This document shows, piece by piece, positions 9,352 to 11,740 of a DNA stretch of 64,000 nt. The stretch comes from Cyanobium sp. NS01 (GTDB lineage: Bacteria; Cyanobacteriota; Cyanobacteriia; PCC-6307; Cyanobiaceae). Location of the stretch: NCBI RefSeq assembly GCF_014280235.1, contig NZ_CP047940.1, forward strand, positions 310,001 to 374,000, read 5' to 3'. The notes under the pieces are model-generated. The model worked only from the letters and a program-made list of their open reading frames with translations. It was not told where the DNA came from and ran no database searches. Within the stretch, counting starts at the first letter, position 1. Every line of letters starts with the position of its first letter. A program made the translations under genes and the position numbers.

Positions 9352-9428
9352 GACGCCGGGCGGTGGTCACCCCAGCGTTTTAGTCCCGCCAGGGGTTCGT
9401 ACAGTCGCCACAGTGCGCCTCCAAGCCC

Positions 9429-10115
9429 TTGGCTTCCCCCGCCGCCACAGAACAGCCCACCCTGATCCGTGCCTGGGAAGCCTTCCTGGCCCATGTGCCC
9501 ACGATGCTGCTGATCTGGGTGGCCACGGCGGTGATCAGTGGGGTGGGGGTGGCGATCTATCTGATCGTCAACCTGATCGTGTTCGCCGCGGCCGGCGGCG
9601 AGGACATGTCCGATGCCGCTGCCGGAACGGCGCTGGTCGTGGGCCAGCTGGGTCAGCTGCCCTTCTCGATCCTCTCCAGCCTGGTGGGCGTGCTGTTCAC
9701 CGCCGTCCCGGCCATTCACTACGCCACGGGAGACACCATCGGCATCGAGGCGGCGTTCCAGGCCCTGTGGGCCCGCCCCTGGCGCTATCTGCTGGCGGGT
9801 GTGCTGTTCACCGTTGCCGTGGTGATCGGCCTGCTGCTGTGCGTCTTGCCCGGGATTGCCGTGGCCCTGGTGGGACCCGTGTACGTCAACAAGGTGTTCA
9901 ACACCGACCTGCCGGTGCTCGATGCCCTGCGGACTTCGTTTCAGGCCGTCTACCGCTCCCAGCGGGGCTGGGAATTCGTGGGGATCGAGATCCTCACGGG
10001 CCTGGTCGTCGCCGTTGTGTCCGTGGCCACCTGCGGCCTGGGGGCCCTGGTGGCAGTTCCCGTCTCCAGCTTCTACATCCAGAACGTGGCCTATCACCGG
10101 GGCGTGCTGAGCTGA
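9429..10115 (+). CDS. Multi-pass membrane protein of unknown function
   Basis: A 228-residue protein opening at TTG 9429 (no ATG or GTG is in frame at this end). Four to six hydrophobic segments are visible: around residues 25-50, 65-95, 118-150 and 188-215. They contain many Gly and Ala residues and an amphipathic stretch GDTIGIEAAFQALWARPWRY. It resembles broad families of bacterial membrane proteins with a repeated permease-like topology, but no catalytic motif is visible. It diverges from the thioesterase gene with a 77-base gap. Confidence 0.75.
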   Translation: MASPAATEQPTLIRAWEAFLAHVPTMLLIWVATAVISGVGVAIYLIVNLIVFAAAGGEDMSDAAAGTALVVGQLGQLPFSILSSLVGVLFTAVPAIHYATGDTIGIEAAFQALWARPWRYLLAGVLFTVAVVIGLLLCVLPGIAVALVGPVYVNKVFNTDLPVLDALRTSFQAVYRSQRGWEFVGIEILTGLVVAVVSVATCGLGALVAVPVSSFYIQNVAYHRGVLS

Positions 10116-10125
10116 GGGGCGCGTC

Positions 10126-10521
10126 TCATGGGCTGGGGAAGGCTGGGATCCCCAGGCGGTAGTGCAGCACCATCCGCACCCCCCAGTAGCCCAGCAGCAG
10201 GGCGATGCCGGCGCCCCCCTGCCAGGGTCTGAGCCTGAGGCCGCCAGGCCAGAGCCGTCGCTGCCGGATCGCCTGCAGCGACCACACCAGCAGGGCTCCG
10301 GCCACGAGCGGTCCGAAGGCATGCTGCGCCAGGGCCTCCGACCAGTTCCCCTGCAGGCTGGAGCTGGTGGCGCGGGTGAGGAAGCAGCTGGGGCAAGGAA
10401 GTCCCGTGAGGGCTCGCAGCGGGCAGGGCCAACCCGGTAGGGAGGGATGGAGGCCCTTGAACCAGAGGTAGCCGGTGAGGCCGGCGGGCAGGAGAAAGCC
10501 GGCCCGTTGCAGTTGGCTCAG
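10126..10521 (-). CDS. DUF2752 family membrane protein lacking a standard start codon
   Basis: The minus strand encodes a DUF2752-like protein: TGYLWFKGLHPSLPG, then the family hallmark CPLRALTGLPCPSCFLTRA, then two hydrophobic helices ending GIPAFPSP before TGA at 10128-10126. The open frame is bounded upstream by a TGA inside the ndhH 3' end and contains no ATG, GTG or TTG before the conserved part. CTG 10521 (131 residues) is my best guess for the start; an ATC upstream is another option. DUF2752 proteins are small membrane proteins with a Cys pair, function unknown. It follows ndhH on the same strand, so it may be co-transcribed. Confidence 0.75.
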   Translation of the reverse strand: MSQLQRAGFLLPAGLTGYLWFKGLHPSLPGWPCPLRALTGLPCPSCFLTRATSSSLQGNWSEALAQHAFGPLVAGALLVWSLQAIRQRRLWPGGLRLRPWQGGAGIALLLGYWGVRMVLHYRLGIPAFPSP

Positions 10522-10555
10522 GAAGCGGCGGCGCGGGCTTCGGGACGCTCCGAGT

Positions 10556-11740
10556 TCAGCGATCGACCGATCCCATGATCACGTCGATGGAGCCGAGGAT
10601 GGCCATGATGTCGGCCACCTTGGCGCCCTTGAGGATGTGGGGCAGGATCTGCAGGTTGTTCTGGTCGGCGGCGCGGATCTTGAAGCGCCAGGGGGTGACG
10701 TCGTCGTTGCCCTGGATGAACACGCCGATCTCGCCCTTGCCGGATTCCAGCCGGGTGTAGAGCTCGCCGGAGGGGATCTTGAAGGTGGGGGCCACCTTCT
10801 TCGCCACGTACTGGTAGTCGAAGCCGCTGGCCTCGCCACCCTTGCCCTCGGCCATGCGCCTGGCCTCCAGGTTTTCGGTGGGGCCGCCGGGGATCATGGC
10901 GCAGGCCTGGCGCAGGATCTTCAGCGACTCGCGCATCTCCTGCACCCGCACCCGGTAGCGCGCGAAGCAGTCACCCTCCTGGGCCGTCACCACCGACCAG
11001 TCGAAATCGTCGTAGCACTCGTAGTGATCCACCTTGCGGAGATCCCAGGGCACGCCGGAAGCCCTCAGCATCGGCCCCGAGAGGCTCCAGTTGATCGCCT
11101 GCTCACGCGTGATCGCCCCCAGCCCCTCGATGCGCTTGCGAAAGATCGGGTTGTTGGTGATCAGTTTCTCGTATTCGTCGATCTTGGGGCCGAACCAGTC
11201 GCAGAAGTCGAGGCACTTCTCCAGCCAGCCGTAGGGCAGATCGGCGGCCACTCCGCCGATGCGGAAGTAGTTGTTGTTGATCAGCCGCTGGCCGGTGGCC
11301 GCTTCCCAGAGGTCGTAGATCATCTCCCGCTCGCGGAAGATGTAGAAGAACGGTGTCTGGGCGCCCACATCAGCCAGGAAGGGTCCAAGCCAGAGCAGGT
11401 GGTTGGCGATGCGGTTGAGCTCCAGCATCAGCACCCGGATGTAGCTGGCGCGCCGGGGCACCGGCACATTGGCCAGCCGCTCGGGAGCGTTGACCACGAT
11501 CGCCTCGTAGAACATGCCGGCCGCATAGTCCATGCGGCTCACGTAGGGCACGAACATCACATTCGTGCGGTTTTCGGCGATCTTCTCCATGCCGCGGTGC
11601 AGGTAGCCGATCACCGGCTCGCAGTCCACCACGTCCTCGCCGTCGAGGGTCACCACCAGCCGCAACACCCCGTGCATCGAAGGGTGATGGGGGCCGAAGT
11701 TGACCACCATCGGCTCCGTGCGCGTTTCCAGCTGCGTCAT
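10556..11740 (-). CDS. ndhH: NAD(P)H-quinone oxidoreductase subunit H
   Basis: The 49-kDa-type subunit of the hydrophilic arm of thylakoid NDH-1. With NdhK it forms the plastoquinone-reduction site. The opening [19 protein letters not shown], the motif [15 protein letters not shown] and the ending [13 protein letters not shown] are diagnostic. At 394 residues it is full length from ATG 11740. It stands apart from the other NDH genes in this window and is divergent from rsmH. Confidence 0.97.

Follow-up and report, generated by a model that had tools for sequence, protein, structure and literature searches.

A CUG codon as the likely conserved start of the DUF2752 gene behind ndhH in Cyanobium sp. 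NS01 and its relatives

CUG start codons in bacteria have been treated as rare accidents, and gene-finding tools that accept only ATG, GTG and TTG pass over them. Here we describe a gene of the DUF2752 family that follows ndhH, in the same direction on the minus strand, in a 64,000-nucleotide stretch of Cyanobium sp. NS01 (Cyanobiaceae; contig NZ_CP047940.1, positions 310,001 to 374,000; hereafter "the window", with positions counted from its first letter), and that lacks a standard start codon ahead of its conserved domain. Where two papers treat start-codon use, CUG starts are described as very rare in bacteria (PMC5622118, PMC9845219). For unidirectional gene pairs, a 4-nucleotide overlap is given as the commonest spacing, and re-initiation behind the upstream stop as falling steeply with distance, in the sections of PMC10666635 that deal with spacing. 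The open-licence PMC literature yielded no paper mentioning DUF2752, and nothing on this gene in connection with CTG or CUG starts in cyanobacteria. Comparison of the locus with its relatives suggests that this is likely a functional membrane-protein gene that begins at CUG in about half of the loci and, in the window, probably at CTG 10521.

The upstream gene, ndhH, occupies 394 codons (10556-11740, minus strand; ORF list and Complex1_49kDa, PF00346, E 1.4e-97) and ends in a TGA at 10556-10558. The DUF2752 frame runs from stop to stop over 150 codons (10126-10578, minus strand), bounded upstream by a TGA within ndhH (10581-10579); as the original prediction had stated, it contains no usable ATG, GTG or TTG, the first in-frame codon of this set being GTG 10305, which lies within the domain part of the gene, 72 codons past CTG 10521 and beyond the family hallmark, and would leave only 59 codons. 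CTG 10521 (10519-10521, minus strand), which is followed by an A to give CTGA, is the sole in-frame NTG upstream of the hallmark, and the sole one between the ndhH stop and the codon that we number 0 (CTG 10521 itself). Read from there, the gene comprises 131 codons and a stop (10126-10521, minus strand), with three long helices predicted, and its identity is supported by PF10825, by relatives and by a structure model.

The hallmark and helices named in the original prediction were borne out. The window frame matches Pfam family PF10825 (DUF2752) over residues 52-99 of the 150-codon frame (E 3.1e-15, scoring 56.4 bits where the cut-off is 27), and the hallmark, CPLRALTGLPCPSC (10384-10425, minus strand), is plain in both sequence and alignment: all 46 rows of alignment A1 share C33, P34, G40, P42, P44 and C46, and at least 90% have C43. 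The nearest relative shares 70% identity over about 130 residues, and protein matches at E <= 1e-6 occur in 163 of 400 family genomes, which together argue that the frame is a real gene and not a chance opening. Within the genus, 12 of the 13 genomes have a match. The structure model (mean pLDDT 91.1) places helices at residues 2-24, 70-87 and 99-122, in addition to shorter ones, with a predicted membrane location; it was built from the 10521 product alone and thus offers no comparison of longer versions. A fold search against the PDB returned nothing at E <= 0.001 (best E 0.82), a profile search against PDB sequences gave three matches, each at E 0.1 or worse, and an NCBIfam scan of the product gave none at E <= 1.

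For comparison, we gathered 152 loci, which cover about 140 of the 163 matching family genomes (G256, G276 and G225 are among those outside the sample, as are lower-ranked matches). A scan of genome contigs gave three of the loci, two of which are identical near the start to others in the sample (L050 to L032, and L051 to L037). Each locus was oriented by its own match and numbered from the window's codon 0. An ndhH-linked set of 106 loci (104 distinct) holds those with ndhH in the same direction, a spacing of at most 130 nt and a match starting at residue 9 or earlier; it leaves out loci whose retrieved sequence has no ndhH, along with L015, L047 and L052 (spacings 580, 149 and 149), L080 (match from residue 25; TTG at -6), L148 and, as lying outside the family, L018-L026. 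A wider, anchored set of 135 loci excludes L017-L026 and matches starting after residue 9. Rows with matches starting at residues 2-9 are anchored on the assumption of no gap. The tree, made by a quick method, has 133 rows and 125 columns, with 28 of 130 branches starred, and further omits L115, L123, L132, L135, L136, L151 and L152.

The lack of a standard start is widespread among these relatives. In 61 of the 104 distinct linked loci, the stretch that opens 8 nt ahead of the ndhH stop and closes at codon 0 has no ATG, GTG or TTG, and in all 61 it has a CTG. A standard start is likewise lacking, up to codon 0, in 68 of the 135 anchored loci, spread over 17 of 24 genus labels, and in 56 of the 135 the first standard start comes at codon 9 or later. 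Because 61 of 104 linked relatives share the missing start, sequence error, one of the options in the original prediction, does not explain it in general; for the window's own start, where the CTG at the ndhH stop (10557-10559) is out of frame, an error or a recent start loss may still apply.

The codon four places upstream of codon 0 behaves as a start column. In the 104 linked loci it is CTG in 54, ATG in three, GTG in one and TTG in one, the remaining 45 being non-NTG. Its only leucine codons are the 54 CTG and the single TTG: CTC, CTT, CTA and TTA are found there in none of the 104 rows, and neighbouring leucine columns use all of them. At codon 0, itself a leucine column, the 59 rows with NTG at -4 carry 35 CTG, eight CTC, four CTA, four CTT, two TTA and two TTG, and the 54 rows with CTG at -4 carry 33 CTG and 17 other leucine codons (Fisher 7e-7 against codon -4, for rows picked for their CTG and uncorrected for kinship); elsewhere in these 54 genes, CTG makes up 53% of leucine codons. 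In 57 of 59 rows an A follows the NTG, matching the enrichment of A at the fourth site of bacterial genes (PMC5850271). Among the 68 tree rows with NTG at -4, the codon there changes at least seven times. An ATG at the same place in relatives, which the original prediction would have counted, together with reads showing an indel, against its reading, does exist four codons upstream of codon 0, in only the three linked loci (six of 133 tree rows); L110 has a TAA and then an ATG in the -4 column.

Coding constraint also begins at this codon, as indicated by variation that is biased toward third positions downstream of it and even upstream of it. Pairwise differences at codon positions 1, 2 and 3 are 0.19, 0.35 and 0.59 over codons -3 to -1, which mostly read N R F and vary mainly in the third position, compared with 0.72, 0.61 and 0.74 over codons -8 to -5; among the 59 NTG rows, all positions of codons -12 to -5 vary alike, with no coding periodicity. 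Besides ndhH's own stop, in-frame stops appear at -5 (1 of 52), -8 (5 of 28), -10 (1 of 21) and -11 (1 of 20), and none from -4 on. We consider it highly probable, from this comparative pattern, that CUG is the conserved start codon of the DUF2752 gene behind ndhH across the family.

The two genes keep no fixed frame: of the 104 loci, DUF2752 is in frame 0 relative to ndhH in 11, in frame 1 in 33 and in frame 2 in 60. For the 11 loci in frame 0, this puts the stop of ndhH within the DUF2752 frame, at least five codons upstream of codon 0. Loci without NTG at -4 are mostly in frame 2, with an NTG overlapping the ndhH stop; the overlap reads CTGA in several groups besides the window's neighbours, GTGA in a single genus and TTGA in a single locus, and CUG most likely often overlaps the ndhH stop as CUGA. 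In genus g6 (e.g., L011, L063 and L064), the last ndhH codon is CGG instead of CGC, so that the overlap becomes GTGA, with a standard start. Within one genus, seven loci have a single codon between a TGA and the CTG, and a search for this pattern found it in 12 of 400 family genomes, four of them in other genera, where the motif differs at the codon before CTG. The frame-1 exceptions without NTG at -4 are L006, L053 and L083 (TTG at -6), L043 (ATG at -8), L048 (GTG at -9) and the window. In L006, L053, L080 and L083, the TTG start lies within ndhH and overlaps its TAA stop region, the -4 column there falling inside ndhH.

This variability bears on two other ways of producing the protein. The abutting frames and the CGC TGA at their junction might suggest that programmed frameshifting, or read-through of the ndhH stop, yields DUF2752 as an extension of NdhH; this origin was rejected because the frame varies among loci, and it is also countered by in-frame stops between the genes in several loci and by the presence of ATG, GTG or TTG in the CTG column of some relatives, making it extremely improbable. 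Translation could instead begin upstream at a non-NTG codon, such as the ATC inside ndhH (10561-10563, minus strand), which the original prediction offered alongside CTG and which is in frame and, in principle, a table-11 start. Yet relatives show no start-like column there, ndhH accounts for the conservation of its own last codons, codons -12 to -5 lack coding periodicity, and the differing frames (11, 33 and 60 loci) mean that ATC cannot be a shared start. With comparative support absent, ATC was rejected as a very unlikely start, and of the two codons first proposed, it is CTG that is strongly supported for the family.

Nor is coupling to ndhH obligatory, as four relatives keep CTG at -4 without ndhH directly upstream: L015, with the ndhH stop 580 nt off, and L106, L112 and L121, with no ndhH match in about 0.5 kb upstream. 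In all four, an in-frame stop lies 9 to 17 codons before codon 0. An ndhH stop next to the gene is nonetheless present in most loci.

The window copy is an outlier within its own group. In the tree, it (L001) joins L002 and L003 (support 92) and then L027, L028 and L030 (support 88), neither fork being starred. All five neighbours are in frame 2 and carry, within the DUF2752 frame, a CTGA at the ndhH stop (L027 additionally has TTG at -2), and the window alone is in frame 1, where the corresponding CTG (10557-10559, minus strand) is out of frame. Because this CTGA is out of frame in the window alone, an indel, natural or technical, separates it from its neighbours. We lean toward CTG 10521 as the start now used in the window, after an indel had moved the ndhH-stop CTG out of frame. 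It is possible, but less probable, that the indel is recent, lies in the spacer (10522-10555) and reflects a sequencing error or else a natural frameshift, the true or former start being CTG 10559 at the ndhH stop. The layout shared by the five other members of the six-row clade would fit this, as would the arginine-rich residues ahead of codon 10521, which resemble those of L002 and L003. However, the genome is a single contig with 100% completeness and 0.11% contamination, spacer lengths vary widely in the family and thus mark indels here as natural and common, the clade fork (support 88) is unstarred, and CTG 10521 with its following A is itself a candidate working start. A spacer indel of this sort would leave the family-wide CUG start intact and change only the window's coordinate.

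Alternatively, the window copy might be a decaying gene that has lost its start, an idea we regard as improbable. The gene is dispensable, as 237 of 400 family genomes are without a match at E <= 1e-6, and one copy (G256:C2:296923-297267) has two internal stops, a TGA and a TAA, and is probably a pseudogene. Against decay, the window frame is unbroken over its whole length, the family motifs are preserved, and synonymous and non-synonymous codon changes against L002 number 9 and 8 over codons 0-30, balanced as in a constrained gene, although a very recent loss would look the same.

Several observations weigh against a CUG start, in the family or in the window. The start codons are inferred from comparison alone, and the relatedness of the rows means that the Fisher value overstates the evidence. 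In 43 of the 104 linked loci, including all those with GTGA overlaps, a standard start does exist in the stretch, and 11 of the 68 loci that lack an earlier one have their first standard start at codon +3 (a TTG for six of the seven loci in frame 0 with 18-nt spacing in one genus); a start at +3 would, for its part, cut the conserved NRFLRR. Of the 59 NTG rows, only 17 have a Shine-Dalgarno-like motif ahead of codon -4. In the window, codon -4 is CGC, not NTG, the residues preceding codon 10521 (RRF) are still family-like, and the gap of 34 nt between the ndhH stop and CTG 10521 is one at which re-initiation was almost abolished in the pairs tested, going by the spacing data of PMC10666635. 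One study reports that a reporter with a CUG start was not expressed in tobacco chloroplasts or in E. coli (PMC9845219).

The layouts that look ancestral are a CUG overlapping the ndhH stop (CUGA, 4-nt overlap) or a CUG slightly downstream, again followed by A. Ribosomes finishing ndhH may re-initiate at this CUG with formyl-methionine, and the weak codon could hold the membrane protein low relative to NdhH. Where a spacer intervenes, one might imagine ribosomes leapfrogging from ndhH to DUF2752 through one or more tiny NTGA-joined frames that end at the CUGA start, though we think this unlikely. Such a chain would be self-compensating, a tandem 17-nt unit with a TGA shifting the frame by exactly what a 4-nt overlap restores. 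Tandem 17-nt repeats do lie between the two genes in L012 (1892-1948) and L029 (1431-1494), in 3.4 and 3.8 copies, each unit having an NTGA overlap, and they spell three successive overlapping six-codon frames before the CTG. The window's link would be a possible mini-ORF of 13 codons plus TGA (10518-10559, minus strand) that opens with the CTG overlapping the ndhH stop and closes with a TGA overlapping CTG 10521, and its openness is what chance would give (null 0.95 at this locus). Across the family, an open NTGA-to-CTGA frame is not above chance: it occurs in 26 of the 33 loci in frame 1, where shuffling the spacers gives 23.1, and in none of the 11 in frame 0.

On the opposite strand, a convergent gene at 9429-10115 (plus strand) likely encodes a membrane protein, and its first listed start is TTG. 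Its frame (9384-10115, plus strand) had no Pfam match and gave a weak, sub-threshold YciC-like match in a profile search.

If the CUG start is real, CUG would be the main start of the DUF2752 gene across many genera, with ATG, GTG or TTG taking its place in that column now and then. The gene would then offer a natural system in which to study what maintains a weak start and how ribosomes that re-initiate after a stop select their codon; its protein may be missing or truncated in annotations that use the usual start set. As a protein, the window's product is an ordinary member of PF10825, alike in its profile match (E 3.1e-15) and its Cys/Pro hallmark, and unusual in its start codon alone. As in other bacterial non-AUG (CUG) initiation, an NTG near-cognate codon would open the coding frame, but here CTG is the commonest codon of the start column, in 54 of 59 NTG rows. 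And as in termination-reinitiation at 4-nt overlaps of the ATGA type, start and upstream stop share 4 nt in many loci (CTGA, GTGA), with the differences that the DUF2752 start would be CUG instead of AUG and that, in place of the start/stop overlap with ndhH seen in many relatives, a spacer separates the two in many loci, among them the window's.
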